This document shows, piece by piece, positions 1,609-7,283 of a DNA stretch of 7,283 nucleotides; position 1 is the stretch's first letter; each line of letters opens with the position of its first letter. The notes beneath the pieces are model-generated. The model worked only from the letters and a program-made list of their open reading frames with translations. It ran no database searches and was not told where the DNA came from. The translations under genes were made by a program, and so were the position numbers. Location: contig WTGR01000438.1 of NCBI GenBank assembly GCA_011523485.1, positions 1-7,283 on the forward strand, given 5' to 3'. The stretch comes from Acidobacteriota bacterium (GTDB taxonomy: Bacteria > Acidobacteriota > Vicinamibacteria > Vicinamibacterales > UBA8438).

Positions 1609-2292
1609 GTGAGCAGAATCCTGATCGTCGAGGACGATCGTTCCCTGGCAACCGCGCTGTCGGAGGGGCTGCAGTACGAGGGCCACGTGACGCTGCTGGC
1701 GCGCGACGGCGCCGCCGGCCTGCGCCTGGCCGGCCAGGGCGGGATCGATCTCGTCATTCTCGACGTCATGCTGCCCGAAGTGAACGGCGTCGACGTCTGC
1801 CGGAGGCTGCGATCGCGCGGGAGCACGATTCCGATCGTCATGCTCACCTCGAAGAGCCAGGAGCTCGACAAGGTCGTCGGCCTGAAGGCGGGGGCGGACG
1901 ACTACATCACGAAGCCGTTCAGCTTCATGGAGCTCCTCGCGCGCGTCGAGGCCGTCCTGCGCCGCTCGCGACGGTTCGCGGAGCAGGCCCATACCTACGC
2001 GTTCGGAGACGTGACGCTGAACTTCAGGACCCGCGAGGTCACGAAAGGGAAGAAGCCCCTGGCGTTGCAGCCGCGCGAGTTCCGGCTGCTCGAGTACTTC
2101 ATCGAGCATCGCGGCGAGGTGGTGGGGCGGGATCAGCTCCTGGACTCTGTCTGGGGCCACGGCGCGGTTTCGCCGCTGACCCGCACCGTCGACATGCACA
2201 TCGCCAAGCTGCGCCAGAAGATAGAGGACGACTCGTCGGATCCCCGCTGGATCGTCACCGTGCACCGCGTCGGCTACCGGTTCACCGGATAG
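1609..2292 (+). CDS. OmpR/PhoB-family response regulator
   Basis: DNA-binding response regulator of 227 aa, the normal length for the family. The receiver domain (about 1-118) has the acidic pair Glu8/Asp9-Asp10, the phosphoacceptor Asp52 (LVILDVMLP), the switch Thr80 (VMLTS) and Lys102 (TKPFS). The C-terminal winged-helix domain (about 127-227) carries the family signatures [24 protein letters not shown] and the terminal VHRVGYRF. The GTG start is preceded by a purine-rich GAGGGG, although the spacing is tight. It begins the standard [10 protein letters not shown] strand, so the start is convincing. The gene follows the kinase by 20 bp and is almost certainly its partner. Its position directly upstream of the lasso operon, same strand, makes that operon a candidate target. 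It could equally be autoregulatory or act elsewhere. Confidence 0.96.
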
Positions 2293-2310
2293 CGCCGCCA
2301 GACCCGTCGC

Positions 2311-2330
2311 GGGGCTCCGTGTTCGGCCCC
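2311..2330 (+). terminator. Weak hairpin just after the response regulator
   Basis: GGGGC (2311-2315) can pair with GCCCC (2326-2330) around a loop of about 10 nt, starting 18 bp past the regulator stop codon. No T-run follows; the next bases are C-rich. It is therefore not a convincing intrinsic terminator and could be chance in GC-rich DNA. Read-through from the two-component genes into the lasso operon cannot be excluded. Confidence 0.2.
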
Positions 2331-2362
2331 ATCCCCCACCGGCCGCAACCGTTCACGGCCAT

Positions 2363-2388
2363 GCAAGCAAGAGATCGCCAGTGCTTGC
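2363..2388. promoter_or_regulatory. Inverted repeat GCAAGCA-N12-TGCTTGC
   Basis: A perfect 7-bp inverted repeat, GCAAGCA (2363-2369) and TGCTTGC (2382-2388), with a 12-bp spacer. It lies in the 253-bp region between the response regulator and the lasso precursor. It could be an operator or an RNA hairpin. The absence of a T-run argues against a terminator. No binding protein can be named. Confidence 0.3.
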
Positions 2389-2426
2389 GCGGCGCGGTGT
2401 ACGCGATGGCGTTGCGTCGACTGCCG

Positions 2427-2444
2427 TGACATTGACGCATGTCA
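2427..2444. promoter_or_regulatory. Operator-like inverted repeat TGACAT-N6-ATGTCA
   Basis: A perfect 6-bp inverted repeat (TGACAT, TGACGC, ATGTCA read in order) centred about 110 bp upstream of the precursor ATG. It contains the -35-like hexamer TTGACG (2432-2437), though no good -10 lies 16-18 bp downstream. TGAC recurs at 2433 and 2455, giving a mixture of direct and inverted half-sites. It is a candidate binding site for the adjacent response regulator. OmpR/PhoB-type regulators more often bind direct repeats, so the assignment is only an inference. Confidence 0.35.
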
Positions 2445-2545
2445 TCGAACCGGCTGACCGGATGCAATGTCTTCCCCCGGCCCCGACCCCACAATACGTT
2501 CACATCCGGCGGCGCCGCCGCCATATCCAGAATGGGGAGGAAAGA

Positions 2546-2689
2546 ATGACTGCACCGCGCAACTGCCGCCGCAAGAAGACGTACGTCACGCCGCGAGTCG
2601 TCGATTTCGGGGCCATCGACGCCATGACCGGCGATTGCTTCGGACTCTGCCTCGACGGCATGAACGGCGGATTGTTCTGGGGTCCCTGA
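2546..2689 (+). CDS. Lasso peptide precursor (A protein), 47 aa
   Basis: Ribosomally made precursor of a lasso peptide. The ATG is chosen because GGGGAGG (2534-2540) sits 5 bp upstream; the same frame is open further upstream but has no such site there. The leader contains YVTPRVVDFGAIDAMT (residues 13-28). This matches the known lasso leader pattern YxxPxLxxxGxxxxxT in exact spacing, with Val18 for Leu. YxxP is the part bound by the B1 protein, and the Thr is normally the penultimate leader residue. The core lies within GDCFGLCLDGMNGGLFWGP (29-47). Asp37 is the only acidic residue after position 30, so it must be the ring acceptor. That gives a 9-membered ring if the core starts at Gly29, or an 8-membered ring if it starts at Asp30. 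Cys31 and Cys35 both lie in the ring. Leu43-Phe44-Trp45 are possible steric plugs. The downstream B2, C and B1 genes confirm the class. I do not recognise the peptide. Confidence 0.93.
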   Translation: MTAPRNCRRKKTYVTPRVVDFGAIDAMTGDCFGLCLDGMNGGLFWGP

Positions 2690-2705
2690 TTCCATTCCCT
2701 CGGAC

Positions 2706-2754
2706 CCGGGTCGTCGGGCGGACGGGTCGACGCGCCGCCCGCTCGACGATTCGG
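2706..2754 (+). promoter_or_regulatory. Strong stem-loop between precursor and B2 genes
   Basis: In the 89-bp gap after the precursor stop codon, 2706-2715 pairs with 2745-2754 (10 pairs, two of them G-U). Inside that, GGGCGG (2716-2721) pairs with CCGCCC (2735-2740), with a 4-nt bulge at 2741-2744 and a 13-nt loop. No T-run follows, so it is not a classical terminator. It sits where RiPP operons often need abundant precursor mRNA and less enzyme mRNA, so it may be an mRNA-stability, processing or attenuation element. GC-rich DNA raises the chance background, but 16 pairs is well above what I would expect to find by accident. Confidence 0.5.
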
Positions 2755-2778
2755 CTCGAGCGTTGCGGGGAGCAGTCG

Positions 2779-3198
2779 ATGACTACGGCTTTCGACGGTT
2801 CGCGAACGGGTCTCTCGATGCAGGCGTTCCTGATCTTCGTGCTTCTGGACGTCGGATTTCTCGTCCTCGGATTTCCCCGGACGTACCGGTTCACGAGATG
2901 GTGGGTTGGAGTGGCGCGCGCGGCGGTATCGACAGCGCCCGAGCGTCACGTGGAACGGACCATGGCGGCCGTGCGAACCGCCACGCGCTACTACTGGCGG
3001 CGCGGGCTGGATTGCCTGCCCAGGGCTCTGACCATCTACGTGCTCTTGCGGCGCCGGGGCGTTCCCGCGACGCTGCATATCGGCGTGAAGCGCTATCCGT
3101 TCGGCGCCCACGCCTGGGTCGAATGCCTCGGCGACGTGCTGGACGATTCGATTGACGATTGGCGGCACGAGCCCTACGCGTCGATCATCTCGACCTGA
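2779..3198 (+). CDS. Lasso peptide leader peptidase (B2, transglutaminase-like)
   Basis: Cysteine protease of the transglutaminase-like fold that removes the leader from the lasso precursor. It has 139 aa, the usual size of a stand-alone B2. The ATG at 2779 is preceded by GGGGAG (2767-2772) at good spacing. The frame extends upstream over the precursor gene, but those starts lack support. A hydrophobic N-terminal stretch (about 14-32) is followed by a basic/aromatic segment, as is common in B2 proteins. The catalytic Cys79 lies in LDCLPRALTIYVLLRRRG. His111 lies in FGAHAWVE, and the acid is probably Asp123 in GDVLDD. Family hallmarks such as LHIGVKRYPFGAHAWVE are clear. It stands 30 bp before the cyclase. 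No B1 domain is fused to it; that function is encoded separately at 5088, as in other split-B systems. Confidence 0.92.
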   Translation: MTTAFDGSRTGLSMQAFLIFVLLDVGFLVLGFPRTYRFTRWWVGVARAAVSTAPERHVERTMAAVRTATRYYWRRGLDCLPRALTIYVLLRRRGVPATLHIGVKRYPFGAHAWVECLGDVLDDSIDDWRHEPYASIIST

Positions 3199-3228
3199 AC
3201 CTGTCGGGCAGCGACAAAGGACAAACGG

Positions 3229-5100
3229 ATGCAAGCTATCGGCGGCGTATGCCGTCTCGATGGGGGCCCGGTCGATCGCGCGATGGTCGGGTGGATGAAC
3301 GATGCGGCGCAGCTCCTGTTGCCCTGTCGCCGGAGGTCCTGGACCCAGGGCTCCATCGGACTCTTCTGCGCTTCGCCCCACGTCGGCGCAACGGGTCCGG
3401 TGGATGCGGAGCCTGCGGGCGACGGTCCGGGGCAGCGCACGCTCGTCTTCGACGGTCGATTGGACAACCGGGAGGAGCTGGTTGCCGAGCTCCGCCGGCA
3501 CGGCGCCCGGCCGGGGGCGTCCGACGTCGCGTTGACGCTCGCGGCGTACGCCGCCTGGGGCGACGACTGCGCGTCGAAGCTGATTGGAGACTTCGCGTTC
3601 GCCCTCTGGGACGCCGCCCGGCGCCGGTTGCTGTGCGTCCGGGATCCGCTCGGGGTACGGCCGCTGTACATGGAGCTGCGGGACGACGTGGTGTGTTTCG
3701 CCACGCAGATCAGGCAGATTCTGGCCGCACGCCCGCACACGCCGGCGTTCGATCTGGAGTTCGTCGCGGACCGGCTCGCGCACGGCGTCGATCGGGCCGA
3801 CGCCGCCTGCACGCCGTATCGGGGCGTGTCGCGGCTCAAGCCCGGCCACCGCCTGATCGCGGCGGACGGGCGCGTGCGGATCGAACGGTACTGGGAGTGG
3901 AGCAGCGGGGAAGCCGCGGCCGATAGAGACCTCCGCGAGTATGTCGACCGGTTCCGGGAGACGTTCTCCAGCGCGGTTGCGAGTCGGATGCGCGGCGCGG
4001 GCAGGCTCTGGTCGGACCTCTCGGGCGGCCTCGACTCGTCGTCGATCGTGAGCGTCGCGGCCCGCCGGCGAGGCGGTTCCCGGTTGTCGGCCATCAGCGT
4101 CGTGTTCGACCGGTCGACGTTGAGCGACGAACGGCAGTGGGCCGCCGCCGTGGCGCGCACCCTGGGTGTCGACCGGCATTGCATCGACGGCGACGCGCAA
4201 CCGCCGTTCACACGGCTCACCGAGGCCGTCCGGTACTGGGAGGAGCCCCATGCCGCCACGGCGTTCTTCGGCGTGCACCGGCAGTACCAGCGGCTGATGG
4301 GCGGCGCCGGCGTACCGATCCTGCTCACCGGCATCGGCGCCGAAGCGGTCGTCATGAGCAAGCAGCAGTCGCCGGTGCATCTCGCGGATCTGGCGCGCCG
4401 CGGGCGACTGGCGGCGCTCTGGCGCGAGCTCGGCCGCTGGCAGCGAGCGCTCGGGATCCCGCTGGGCAACGTCGCGTCGCGGTACTGCCTGCGACCGCTG
4501 GCGAGCCGTCCCCTGATCAGCCACGGGCGGTTGCCGGAGATACCGGGCTGGATCGCACGCCCCTTCGCGCGCCGGTGGAACCTGGAGGGGCGCGCCCGGA
4601 ACGGGAGCATGCCGCCGGCGCGGCGGGGCGTGGCCGATCAGTGGCACGTCGAGAGGGTCGGCCGCATCAGCGGTTTCCTGTTGCGGGGCTGCCTGGAGAA
4701 GGCGTGCGACATACGGTACCCGTTCCTGCACCGGCCGCTCGTCGAGCTGGCGCTCGCGACGCCGTGGAGCCTGAAGGCCGTGCCGGGAGAAACGAAGGCG
4801 CTCCTGCGCCGCGCAATGGAGGGCGTGCTGCCGGAGGAGGTCAGACGACGCACGCAGAACGCCTCGACCGGCCACGCGGCCTACACCGGCCTGCGCCGGG
4901 AATGGCCGGTTCTCGAGCGCATCGTCGCGTCGTCGATGCTGGCCGAACTGGGCGCGGTCGATCGTGAACGGCTGCGCAACGCCCTGCACCTCGCCCGCCA
5001 GGGACACGCGTTCGATCTCGGCGGGCTCGTCTCGACGTTGACGCTGGATGCGTGGCTGCAGCACGCCGCCCGCAAGGGAGATTCCGCATGGCTGAGCTGA
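3229..5100 (+). CDS. Lasso cyclase (C protein, asparagine synthetase-like)
   Basis: ATP-dependent macrolactam synthetase that adenylates the ring Asp side chain and joins it to the core N-terminus. It has 623 aa, the typical length. AAAGGA (3216-3221) is the ribosome site. The N-terminal half (about 1-220) is a class II glutaminase-type domain with motifs such as FDGRLDNREEL and GDFAFALWD. It has Gln2 in place of the catalytic Cys2, as expected for lasso cyclases, which do not use glutamine. The synthetase half carries the PP-loop SGGLDSSS (265-272) for ATP, then LLTGIGAEAVV (365-375), RYPFLHRPLVELAL (496-509) and ETKALLRRAMEGVLP (521-535). Two expected active-site positions differ: GxG(G/S)DE reads GIGAEA (368-373), and the Lys usual in the RxK segment after VLPEEV appears as Gln543. 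Whether this lowers activity or marks a subfamily is unknown. Its end overlaps the B1 gene by 13 bp. Confidence 0.93.
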   Translation: MQAIGGVCRLDGGPVDRAMVGWMNDAAQLLLPCRRRSWTQGSIGLFCASPHVGATGPVDAEPAGDGPGQRTLVFDGRLDNREELVAELRRHGARPGASDVALTLAAYAAWGDDCASKLIGDFAFALWDAARRRLLCVRDPLGVRPLYMELRDDVVCFATQIRQILAARPHTPAFDLEFVADRLAHGVDRADAACTPYRGVSRLKPGHRLIAADGRVRIERYWEWSSGEAAADRDLREYVDRFRETFSSAVASRMRGAGRLWSDLSGGLDSSSIVSVAARRRGGSRLSAISVVFDRSTLSDERQWAAAVARTLGVDRHCIDGDAQPPFTRLTEAVRYWEEPHAATAFFGVHRQYQRLMGGAGVPILLTGIGAEAVVMSKQQSPVHLADLARRGRLAALWRELGRWQRALGIPLGNVASRYCLRPLASRPLISHGRLPEIPGWIARPFARRWNLEGRARNGSMPPARRGVADQWHVERVGRISGFLLRGCLEKACDIRYPFLHRPLVELALATPWSLKAVPGETKALLRRAMEGVLPEEVRRRTQNASTGHAAYTGLRREWPVLERIVASSMLAELGAVDRERLRNALHLARQGHAFDLGGLVSTLTLDAWLQHAARKGDSAWLS

Positions 5101-5354
5101 GGATTGCCGACCATGCGCATTCCGTTCGCATGGACGATCAGGTCATCGTGGCCGACATGCGGTCGGGGCGCTACCTGGGACTCGACGACGTCGGCGCCAG
5201 GGTATGGGACCTGATCGGGGAGGGCGCTACGCGTGCGTGCATCGTCGAGCGCCTGTCCGCGGAGTACGACGTGGCCGGCGGGATCCTCGAACGCGACGTG
5301 CAGCGACTCCTTCAGGACCTGCTGCGGCGTCGCCTCGTCGAGTACGCGAGTTGA
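5088..5354 (+). CDS. Lasso leader-binding protein (B1, PqqD-like RRE)
   Basis: Small stand-alone RiPP recognition element of 88 aa that binds the precursor leader and delivers it to B2. The fold is the PqqD winged helix-turn-helix. An N-terminal beta region (DDQVIVADMRSGRYLGLDDVGARVWDLI in outline) shows the family pattern of a strand pair, then Y-x-L-x-x-x-G-x-x-(V/I)-W. The helices IVERLSAEYDV and LERDVQRLLQDLLRRRLVEY follow. The ATG at 5088 is chosen over the in-frame one at 5052 because AAGGGAG (5074-5080) precedes it by 7 bp and the family begins here. The start lies inside the cyclase gene (13-bp overlap), which suggests translational coupling. It is the last gene of the operon; the next gene is convergent, 21 bp away, with no visible terminator between them. 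Confidence 0.92.
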   Translation: MAELRIADHAHSVRMDDQVIVADMRSGRYLGLDDVGARVWDLIGEGATRACIVERLSAEYDVAGGILERDVQRLLQDLLRRRLVEYAS

Positions 5355-5375
5355 CGTGCCCGCTCGCTCCGCCGG

Positions 5376-6638
5376 TCAGTCGACGATGGCGGCGTAGACG
5401 GCGGCCGTGAACGCTTCGCGGAACCCGTTGCCGTAGGCCGGCGACGCCGCTCCCATGATGACGGTCACCATGTCCTCCTCCGGGTCGATGAAGAAGCGGG
5501 TGCCGGAGGATCCGTCCCACCAGAACGTGCCCTCGCTGACCGGCAGGGGAGACGCGTCCTCGTCCATCACGACGCAGAAGCCGAGCGTCCAGCCGCGGCC
5601 GGGCTGCGGGTTGCCGAAGCCGATCGGCAGCAGGGCGTCGGGCACGCGGTTGACGGTCATCAGCGCCACGGTGGACGGCTGCAGGATCCGGACGCCGTCG
5701 AGCTCGCCTTCATTGAGAAACATCTGAGAGAACCGCAGGTAGTCGCGCACGGTCGAGACGAGCCCGACGCCGCCCTCGATCAGCGCCGGCGGCTCGGTGA
5801 AGGGCACGGCCTCGATGGAGTACGGGCGCAGCTCGCCGTCCGGCCCGGGCCGGTAGGCGGGGCCGAAGCGGTCGGCGCGGGAGGGATCGACCCGAAAGAC
5901 GGTGTCGGTCATCCCGAGCGGCTCGAACACGCGCTCCCGGAGGAACTCGTCGAAGGGCATCCCGGACCAGACCTCGACCAGACGGCCGAGGATGGTGGTG
6001 GATACGCCGTAGCGCCAGCGGGTTCCGGGATCCTCGAACAGCGGCACCCGCGCGGCGTTGTCCACCATCTGCGGCAGCGTGATCGAGCGCAGCCGCACCT
6101 GCTCGGCGCGATAGATGGCGGATCCGCGGCTCCCGAGACCGGAGGTGTGCAGCAGGAGGTGTTCGACGGTCATCTCCGCGGCCCGCGGCCGGGTCGCCGC
6201 CATGTCGGGGTTGGATGCATCCGTGAAGACGCGCTGGTCCGCGAACTCCGGCAGGTACAGGGAGACCGGGTCGTCGAGCTCGAAGCGGTCTTCCTCCCAC
6301 AGGATCATCACGGCCAGGCTCGTGATGGGGCGCGTCATGGAATAGAGGCGGAAGAGGGCGTCTTCGCGCATCGCGAGGCCGCGTTCGCGGTCGAGCGCGC
6401 CGAGCGCTTCGAGATAGACCAGTCGGCCCTGTCTGACCACCCCGGCCACGACGCCCGCGATGTCGCCCGCCTCGACGTGGGTCCGGAGCCGGGCGGTCGC
6501 CTCTTCCAGCCGCTCGGCAGAGAGTCCCACGGCTTCGGGCGCGGCCCGCGGCAACCCCTGCGCGCTTGCGGGGGGCGGGACGCTCCCGGCCGCGACCGCG
6601 GTGAGACAGACGGCGACGAGGGTGAGCCTGCAGGTCAT
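5376..6638 (-). CDS. Exported serine hydrolase, beta-lactamase/esterase family
   Basis: Penicillin-binding-protein-like serine hydrolase (class C beta-lactamase / family VIII esterase group), 420 aa from the ATG at 6638-6636. That start is chosen over the one at 6695 because AAGGAG lies 7 bp upstream (plus-strand 6646-6651) and it opens a clean signal peptide (about 1-26: MTCR, hydrophobic core, PASAQ cleavage region). The protein therefore probably acts in the periplasm or outside. Ser100 heads the active-site tetrad SMTR (100-103), where the family norm is SxxK, so the general-base Lys is Arg here. Tyr210 (RWRYGVST) fits the second motif, and WWDGSSGTRF (373-382) occupies the place of KTG/W-x-G. 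Other family marks are LLLHTSGLGS and ALIEGGVGLVSTVRDYLRFSQMFLNEGELDGVRIL. The substrate is unknown. The gene is convergent to the lasso operon, and a functional link is not shown. Confidence 0.9.
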   Translation of the reverse strand: MTCRLTLVAVCLTAVAAGSVPPPASAQGLPRAAPEAVGLSAERLEEATARLRTHVEAGDIAGVVAGVVRQGRLVYLEALGALDRERGLAMREDALFRLYSMTRPITSLAVMILWEEDRFELDDPVSLYLPEFADQRVFTDASNPDMAATRPRAAEMTVEHLLLHTSGLGSRGSAIYRAEQVRLRSITLPQMVDNAARVPLFEDPGTRWRYGVSTTILGRLVEVWSGMPFDEFLRERVFEPLGMTDTVFRVDPSRADRFGPAYRPGPDGELRPYSIEAVPFTEPPALIEGGVGLVSTVRDYLRFSQMFLNEGELDGVRILQPSTVALMTVNRVPDALLPIGFGNPQPGRGWTLGFCVVMDEDASPLPVSEGTFWWDGSSGTRFFIDPEEDMVTVIMGAASPAYGNGFREAFTAAVYAAIVD

Positions 6639-6655
6639 GACGTTGCTCCTTCGCG

Positions 6656-6669
6656 GCCTGCCGGCAGGC
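6656..6669. promoter_or_regulatory. 14-bp perfect palindrome upstream of serine hydrolase
   Basis: GCCTGCCGGCAGGC is a perfect palindrome lying 17 bp upstream of the hydrolase start codon, in its leader region. It could be an operator or form a small hairpin near the ribosome site. Its GC content makes chance occurrence fairly likely, and no binding factor can be named. Confidence 0.25.
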
Positions 6670-6685
6670 GGCCCGCGTTCCGTGC

Positions 6686-6691
6686 ACCATA
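6686..6691 (-). promoter_or_regulatory. Possible extended -10 for serine hydrolase
   Basis: Read on the minus strand, TGGTATGGT includes TATGGT preceded by TG at the extended -10 spacing, about 48 bp before the ATG. No good -35 is present at 16-18 bp. It lies in the 182-bp divergent intergenic region (6639-6820), which must hold promoters for both flanking genes. On the plus strand TTGCCT (6716-6721) with CAGTCT (6739-6744) is an even weaker candidate for the other gene. Confidence 0.25.
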
Positions 6692-6820
6692 CCACCAGAA
6701 AAATCCGGTTCGGGCTTGCCTTACGCGACGGTCGATGGCAGTCTGTGCGCAGCGCATTCGCCGGCGCGGTGCAGTGCGCCGCGAAGAAGTCTGTTCGAGG
6801 AGTCTGAGGAGGACCCTGAC

Positions 6821-7283
6821 ATGATGCGAAGACTGACCGTTTTGAGCCTGGGCGTCGTGGTGGCCGCCGGCCTGGTGTGGGGCGGGATCCAGAGCGGCGT
6901 GGTCGGGGCTCAGGGGATGATCCCGAACGCGCCGATGTTCGAGGTCGACCCGTTCTGGCCGAAGCCGCTGCCGAACAACTGGCTGCTCGGCTCGACCATC
7001 GGGGTCTCGGTCGACTCGGACGACCACGTCTGGATCGTGCACCGCGGCAACCTCGCGCCGAACGAGATTCCCGCCGCGCTCGACCCGCCGTTCGCCGAGG
7101 CGTGCTGCTTCGCGGCGCCCCCCATTCTCGAGTTCGACCAGGAGGGCAACCTCGTCCAGCATTGGGGCGGACCCGGTGAGGGTTACGACTGGCCCGAGTC
7201 GAACCACGGCGTCTGGGTCGACGGCATGGACAACGTCTGGATCGGCGGCAACGGCGGCGACGACTCGCACGCCCTGAAGTTCA
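6821..7283 (+). CDS. Exported beta-propeller (NHL-like) protein, 3'-truncated
   Basis: N-terminal 154 codons of a secreted protein that runs off the right edge. The ATG at 6821 has AGGAGG (6807-6812) 8 bp upstream; a second ATG follows directly and is less well spaced. Residues 1 to about 31 form a signal peptide (MMRRL, hydrophobic core, then VVGAQG). After it come two blade-like repeats, IGVSVDSDDHVWIVHRG and HGVWVDGMDNVWIGGNGG, with the D-x-x-(D/G)-x-V-W-(I/V) pattern of NHL/six-bladed propellers. Between them are a CC pair (EACCF) and ILEFDQEGNLVQHWGG, a typical blade strand. Proteins of this type are often annotated as peptidyl-hydroxyglycine-lyase-like or as hypothetical. The function is not known. 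The gene is divergent from the serine hydrolase. Confidence 0.85.
   Translation, partial: MMRRLTVLSLGVVVAAGLVWGGIQSGVVGAQGMIPNAPMFEVDPFWPKPLPNNWLLGSTIGVSVDSDDHVWIVHRGNLAPNEIPAALDPPFAEACCFAAPPILEFDQEGNLVQHWGGPGEGYDWPESNHGVWVDGMDNVWIGGNGGDDSHALKF

Follow-up and report, generated by a model that had tools for sequence, protein, structure and literature searches.

What do the four adjacent genes at positions 2546-5354 of contig WTGR01000438.1 (assembly GCA_011523485.1, an Acidobacteriota bacterium) make? An earlier interpretation drawn from the letters of this DNA, here called the sequence-only reading, took them for a complete lasso-peptide operon with a probably undescribed product. Lasso peptides are short peptides with a knotted shape. 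Our analysis of the window, which is the whole stretch of 7,283 nucleotides, points the same way: the lasso-peptide operon is quite likely complete, with a linked two-component system in control of it and a product of 18 residues. Three points go beyond the earlier interpretation, namely the predicted in-ring cysteines, the acidic residue 1 and the linked two-component system.

In the proposed mechanism, B1 would bind the YxxPxV leader of the precursor A and hand the precursor to B2, in which Cys79, His111 and Asp123 would cleave it behind T(-2)-G(-1). The cyclase C would then activate D8 with ATP and couple it to the amine of residue 1. The predicted product is an 18-residue peptide with an eight-residue ring, D1-C2-F3-G4-L5-C6-L7-D8, that would hold both C2 and C6, followed by the tail GMNGGLFWGP. 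The upstream kinase and regulator may switch the operon. As for its role in the cell, an exported signal or a competition factor would be a guess made with low confidence.

The four genes

The genes for the lasso precursor A (2546-2689, 47 amino acids), the transglutaminase-like Cys leader peptidase B2 (2779-3198, 139 amino acids), the asparagine-synthetase-like macrolactam cyclase C (3229-5100, 623 amino acids) and the PqqD-like leader-binding protein B1 (5088-5354, 88 amino acids) all lie on the + strand in the order A-B2-C-B1, and direct reading confirmed this four-gene arrangement as first proposed. The ATG at 5088 was chosen in the analysis as the start of B1; the open reading frame (ORF) itself is open from 5052, and the chosen ATG overlaps the 3' end of C. 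The best NCBIfam match of each of the four proteins is a lasso model, the nearest solved relative of B1 is TbiB1, and among solved structures the precursor profile comes closest to the leaders of TbiA and TfuA, all of which supports the assignment to a lasso operon. B2 and C in particular score best to lasso families, and the core was not matched to a known peptide in the literature search described below.

B2 was first described as a Cys/His/Asp leader peptidase, and it scores 87.2 bits to the NCBIfam model NF033537 (lasso_biosyn_B2; cut-off 33) and 88.9 bits to Pfam Transglut_core3. All seven sequences of an alignment (the window and six others, two of the seven being fragments) have C79, H111 and D123, as expected of a Cys-His-Asp peptidase. 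In an AlphaFold model built from seven sequences (best of five with a mean pLDDT of 76, the others 53-74), a helix is predicted to begin at C79, and H111 to lie within a strand. No convincing B2 relative was found by sequence in the PDB, where three matches at E 0.026-0.058 are unrelated by name.

For C, the best family is the lasso cyclase model NF033535 with 305.8 bits, above asparagine synthase with 202.4 bits. Pfam assigns Asn_synthase and GATase_7 domains, and the SGGLDSS motif is invariant in 17 aligned sequences. Residue 2 is Gln in place of the glutaminase Cys, so that C is, as had been recognised, an AsnB-like cyclase that lacks this residue. Its only PDB matches are the hydroxyamidotransferase 7ylz (E 7.6e-25), asparagine synthetases and CarA. 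The assignments of C as an asparagine synthetase, an N-acetylglutaminylglutamine amidotransferase or an XrtA amidotransferase were rejected, as all of them score below the lasso cyclase model.

The expectation of a PqqD-like leader binder also held for B1, which scores 56.7 bits to Pfam PqqD (PF05402, cut-off 23.4), with the narrower NCBIfam models below their cut-offs and NF033536 the best of them. Its solved relatives are TbiB1 (5v1u, E 2e-14) and TfuB1 (6e-5), together with two PqqD entries, 9x8z (8e-7) and the lasso chaperone 9x90 (1e-4).

The precursor and its family

The precursor has the sequence MTAPRNCRRKKTYVTPRVVDFGAIDAMTGDCFGLCLDGMNGGLFWGP and its predicted core is DCFGLCLDGMNGGLFWGP, which would begin GDCFGL if cleavage took place one residue earlier. 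The leader motif spans precursor residues 13-28 (2582-2629, + strand), and the spacing YxxPxVxxxGxxxxxT given in the sequence-only reading is exact: Y(-17), P(-14), V(-12), G(-8) and T(-2). This is the YxxPx[LV] leader with Thr at -2 that is looked for in a lasso precursor, and it aligns with the leaders of TbiA and TfuA. A alone has no Pfam match. A profile built from nine precursors matched three entries in the PDB at E up to 10, which are the TbiA leader (0.017), the TfuA leader (0.38) and ubiquitin-S31 (5.6); the two leader matches are weak, yet they are the right molecules, and the ubiquitin match is taken as chance.

In a protein search, the same profile found 74 proteins at E <= 10 among 285 candidates, all 74 with the leader motif and the weakest at 1.1e-11. 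Because the range between E 1.1e-11 and 10 is empty, the matches argue for a discrete precursor family within the reach of that search. Together with seven precursors from loci, these make 81 sequences, and removal of duplicates over the 17 leader residues and the core leaves 74 distinct precursors; the two counts of 74 are equal by chance. One sequence with a 51-residue core (P0188) was retained. In the distinct set the core starts with [D/E/G]1-C2-x-G4-x-C6-x-D8. Y-17, P-14, G-8, T-2, G4, C6 and D8 are present in all 74, and C2 (Ser in P0194) and G9 in 73 each. The acid sought at core position 7, 8 or 9 of a lasso precursor is thus found throughout, as D8, or as D9 in the other register.

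Over the 26 codons from Y-17 to G9 in seven loci, the ratio of nonsynonymous to synonymous change (dN/dS) is 0.07-0.23 in 17 of 21 pairs; three pairs have no amino-acid change, and one is saturated at silent sites and uninformative. Judged by its 74 homologous precursors, its dN/dS and its kept gene order, A appears to be more than a chance ORF. Pairing of A with C gave 18 pairs (two of them for the same A and one with an xG precursor, that is, Gly at +1), drawn from 52 of 120 listed C and 27 of 74 A sequences, which is too few for a co-variation test.

Is the operon functional?

Several observations weigh against the operon reading. Three of the proteins miss the cut-offs curated for NCBIfam: A alone reaches 13.8 bits to the lasso precursor model (cut-off 33), C falls short of 525 and B1 has 45.7 bits where 80 is the mark. 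Also, the precursors were gathered by a profile that already held the conserved positions, which means that their invariance is partly selected for. No transporter domain was found in 20 ORFs scanned around the related loci L001, L002, L003 and L006, a subset of all ORFs of which some may be wrong frames; the same 20 contain no thioredoxin, DoxX or CapA domain. In one related genome (G172, locus L084 at G172:C219, 249-2120), the kinase, the precursor and B2 are present, with neither C nor B1 within the next 1.0 kb and no C like that of the window elsewhere in the genome (best E 7.4e-45); their absence is due to a deletion or to an assembly error.

The missing transporter and the incomplete locus in G172 would suit a silent or decaying cluster that yields no product, and so would a precursor at L004:7241-7348, which lies beside relatives of B2 and C and has a leader with the exact lasso motif but just GSR ahead of the stop. 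This L004 precursor is truncated or frameshifted. However, the precursor is under purifying selection, and L001, L002, L003, L006 and L071 all retain the gene order A-B2-C-B1, which makes a dead cluster very improbable.

Where the leader is cut

In a functional lasso operon the leader would be removed at one of two sites. At positions -1 and +1, the 74 distinct precursors have G/D in 53, G/E in 4 and x/G in 17, with x being D in 7, A in 5, S in 2 and H, N and T in 1 each. Given a cut behind T(-2)-G(-1), residue 1 would be Asp or Glu in 57 of the 74. The 17 xG precursors fit the usual pattern T(-2)x|G1...D8 directly. Their cores fall in two groups, nine with TW[VIL][VFY]P ends and eight with [FY]GA or [FY]GYEP ends, the latter being nearer to the GD cores than the former. 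The TfuA leader, which like that of the window ends in T-G, sets a precedent for a -1 Gly followed by a first residue other than Gly, namely Trp in fusilassin, the TfuA product. In 12 unrelated precursors, taking Thr as position -2 gives G, A or S as residue 1 in all 12, with an acid at position 8 in nine, at 9 in two and at neither in L036. Thr was described as penultimate in all lasso leaders reported before, with Ile in Bradymonadales as the exception, in the available part of PMC10368454.

Other points count against the cut after T-G. The 12 unrelated precursors were hand-picked for the LT motif, and other matches to the motif, including L047 and the L004 precursor with its three-residue core, were dropped. 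Asp and Glu are absent from the five examples of first lasso residues (Gly, Cys, Ser, Ala and Trp) named in the part of PMC6784204 that was available. Moreover, Gly stands at -1 in 57 of 57 precursors with an acid at +1 and in none of the 17 with Gly at +1, a distribution that also fits a cut before Gly and a nine-residue ring. Within the lasso-operon reading, a cut after T-G with an eight-residue ring is on balance probable, and a cut after T with a nine-residue ring, either in the TGD/TGE group or in all members, is conceivable as the lesser prospect.

Two cysteines in the predicted ring

Closure of the predicted ring (2633-2656, + strand) between the D1 amine and the D8 side chain, or closure at D9 in the other register, would place both cysteines inside the ring. 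Lasso classes are defined by disulfide position, and the class descriptions in the available parts of PMC9266682 and PMC13352647 give two bonds, from ring to tail and from ring to loop, for class I, none for class II, a ring-tail bond for class III and a tail-tail bond for class IV. A ring-ring bond is not named in either description; engineered stlassin variants are mentioned in PMC9266682 as carrying ring-loop bonds. Core cysteines are common to these classes and the window, but as described each bond of the known classes has at least one Cys outside the ring, whereas here both would lie inside. The window core has Cys only at 2 and 6, so the Cys1 and two disulfides of class I are absent, and, given closure at D8, its tail has no Cys for the single bond of class III or class IV.

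The ring was modelled with ideal bond geometry, trans amides, no side-chain atoms beyond CB except CG and SG, and a straight line as the tail; it asks for the widest straight channel. In a first run the best pores of free rings measured 1.93 A (7-ring), 1.91 A (8-ring) and 2.19 A (9-ring), and those of disulfide rings 1.20 A (8-ring) and 1.85 A (9-ring); the mark of 1.5 A was set after this run. A pore of at least 1.5 A was then seen in 41 of 128 accepted closures of the free 7-ring (144 started), 46 of 123 of the free 8-ring (144), 1 of 323 of the C2-C6 disulfide 8-ring (576), 0 of 231 of the same ring with Gly1 (384), 18 of 223 of the C3-C7 disulfide 9-ring (384) and 50 of 100 of the free 9-ring (144). 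Starts that did not close were dropped, and the counts for the free 7-ring, the free 8-ring and the disulfide 8-ring were derived from printed fractions. As a crude geometric argument, these numbers suggest that a C2-C6 disulfide and a threaded tail would nearly exclude each other in an 8-ring, and that a C3-C7 disulfide would be just compatible with threading in the 9-ring register. Because of this incompatibility in the model, either the thiols would remain free or the product would be of a new type. The calculated [M+H]+ of the product would be 1883.791 (reduced) or 1881.776 (disulfide) with an 8-ring, and 1940.813 (reduced) or 1938.797 (disulfide) with a 9-ring.

The readings of the cysteine state that follow overlap with the lasso-operon reading and are not exclusive of it. 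Most simply, the tail of the lasso would thread an 8-ring and both thiols would stay free, to bind a metal, some partner with a thiol or another copy of the peptide. Free thiols would follow from the ring model if threading happens, and they fit the conserved [D/E/G]CxGxCxD start and the lack of thioredoxin and DoxX domains in the flanking ORFs scanned. Direct evidence for a metal or a partner is lacking, however, and in the three widest free 8-rings the modelled C2-C6 CA-CA distance is 8.5-10.8 A, at which one ion would be hard for both to bind. We regard this state as a tentative candidate.

Another candidate keeps the threading and shifts the cut: B2 would cleave after T, G1 would close on D9, and C3 and C7 would form a ring-ring cystine in a threaded 9-ring, outside classes I-IV. 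Gly stands at -1 or +1 in 74 of 74 precursors and never at both, which would suit a ring that has to begin with Gly, and both Cys are kept in 73 of 74. The best disulfide 9-ring pore in the model, 1.91 A, is also close to that of the best free 7-ring, 1.99 A. Nonetheless, Thr at -1 would be new against the penultimate Thr of the PMC10368454 account, and a cut after T in every member would leave the 17 xG cores with D, A, S, H, N or T as residue 1. On these grounds such a product seems unlikely.

Still less likely is an unthreaded bicycle, in which lasso enzymes would make a non-lasso product with an 8-ring isopeptide, a C2-C6 disulfide and a free tail. The conserved Cys pair suggests a bond, and the modelled pores of the disulfide 8-rings, open in only one of the closures with and without Gly1 taken together, would leave such a ring unthreaded. 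Yet the ring model is crude, and lasso cyclases close the ring around the tail. Oxidation would thus come only after the tail was in place, and might then fail to yield the disulfide. Taken more broadly, the lasso enzymes of this family might make another type of product, both of whose cysteines lie in the macrolactam. Such a product, be it the 9-ring with its ring-ring cystine and threaded tail or an 8-ring thiol redox lock between threaded lasso and unthreaded bicycle, is a speculative prospect that we would not expect to prevail.

Regulation and neighbouring genes

Upstream of A, domain matches and locus comparison identify a histidine kinase (2-1588, + strand, its 5' end beyond the window edge) and an OmpR/PhoB-type response regulator (1609-2292, + strand). 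The kinase (E <= 1e-90) occurs in six of 193 genomes from the class to which the L003 genome belongs, and these are the six that have the precursor (E <= 1.1e-22); only the best few first-look candidates of each genome were scored. The response regulator lies directly upstream of A in L001, L002, L006 and L071, and in L003 a regulator lies 2.9 kb upstream of the kinase. CRP/FNR-type genes are found upstream of the kinase at L001:3836-4621, L002:3771-4484, L003:4182-4865 and L006:2864-3643; the matching site in the window would be beyond its left edge.

The intergenic region at 2293-2545 (+ strand) contains an invariant TTGA and further invariant columns in five loci. A promoter is presumed here; a sigma-70 scan of 2200-5500 gave no site. 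A terminator scan of the same range found none on the + strand and one on the - strand, as many as in shuffles, and no Rfam family reached its gathering score in the window. A hairpin after A (2687-2780) was rejected, since shuffled sequences fold about equally well (z -1.14, with 23 of 200 shuffles reaching its level).

On the far side of the operon lies a convergent serine hydrolase of the beta-lactamase family (5376-6695, - strand), with the methyl acetate hydrolase AcmB as its best NCBIfam match (180.9 bits, cut-off 550). Known lasso isopeptidases are of the prolyl-oligopeptidase type. The hydrolase was rejected as a lasso isopeptidase by its Pfam family, which is not of this type, and as a dedicated isopeptidase by its distribution: it is not linked with the precursor as the kinase is, occurring in 22 of the 193 genomes, 16 of them without this precursor. 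The order kinase-regulator-A-B2-C-B1-hydrolase is the same in the window, L001 and L002, and L071, which spans only the regulator to the hydrolase, agrees with it. L006 also shares the gene order, but about 1.9 kb separates B1 and the hydrolase there. This gap holds a 578-amino-acid ORF without a Pfam match (L006:10231-11967), for which the window and L001 have no space. A further protein starts at 6821, and its relatives in L001 and L006 carry an NHL repeat.

Host and distribution

The operon probably belongs to an uncultured Vicinamibacterales-type acidobacterium, judging by its sequence relatives, and this agrees with the origin first proposed. C of the window is 90% identical to that of L001, from an Acidobacteria bacterium, and 95% to that of L071; the response regulator is 96-98% and the flanking hydrolase 93-96% identical to relatives. 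Scanning genomes with the alignment of C turned up 60 loci, of which L001, L002, L003 and L006, all titled Acidobacteria or Vicinamibacterales, stand at 65-90% identity and the rest at 38% or less. The genomes of L001, L002, L006 and L071 fall in the same class as that of L003 (Vicinamibacterales).

The six class genomes with the precursor are G001, G002, G003, G004, G172 and G187; in 13 others of the 193, the precursor profile reaches no better than E 2.3e-5 to 0.0085. Of 396 genomes sampled evenly across the phylum, G003 alone matches at 1e-6. The precursor family therefore looks rare and lineage-bound. A close precursor relative (P0125) sits on a 2.3-kb contig of a metagenome-assembled genome labelled Gammaproteobacteria, by misbinning or transfer. 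Spread by plasmids was rejected, with no C match at 1e-30 among 72,556 plasmid records. Another, distinct lasso cluster in the class (L072 in G116, - strand near 1152 and 1387) has two precursors with a CEC motif in their cores, behind the ring acids.

Known systems and significance

The window is most like the split-B lasso systems of TfuA (fusilassin) and TbiA, the latter being the source of TbiB1, in its separate B1 and B2, its AsnB-like C, its YxxPx[VL] leader and its T(-2). It differs from both in the order A-B2-C-B1, the two Cys in the predicted ring and a residue 1 that is mostly Asp or Glu. The actinobacterial lasso gene order is A-C-B1-B2. A histidine kinase and response regulators also belong to the class I clusters of humidimycin and MS-271 according to the available part of PMC7168211, a likeness that is one of gene content. 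In contrast to those clusters, the flanking ORFs scanned here have no transporter, DoxX, thioredoxin or CapA domain.

Acidobacteriota were already known to have lasso clusters. Many are reported in a soil survey (PMC8692599), which in its available part allows comparison by description, without precursor sequences, and shares phylum and cluster type with the window. The expectation that the product is undescribed was borne out as far as the search went: six typical core strings occur in none of the open-access PMC texts searched, with supplements and subscription papers outside the search. The family is likewise not described in the open-access literature surveyed, and a row in a mining supplement is possible.

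Distinctive here, as far as sequence can tell, is the conserved pair of in-ring cysteines with a mostly acidic first residue, a type missing from the class lists in the available parts of PMC9266682 and PMC13352647. With more than 70 precursors that share the CxGxCxD ring, it becomes testable whether a lasso cyclase accepts an acidic residue 1, whether the B2 cut is shifted by one residue, and whether oxidation of the ring is compatible with threading. The family also offers a concrete product target in bacteria that are known here almost only from assembled metagenomes.

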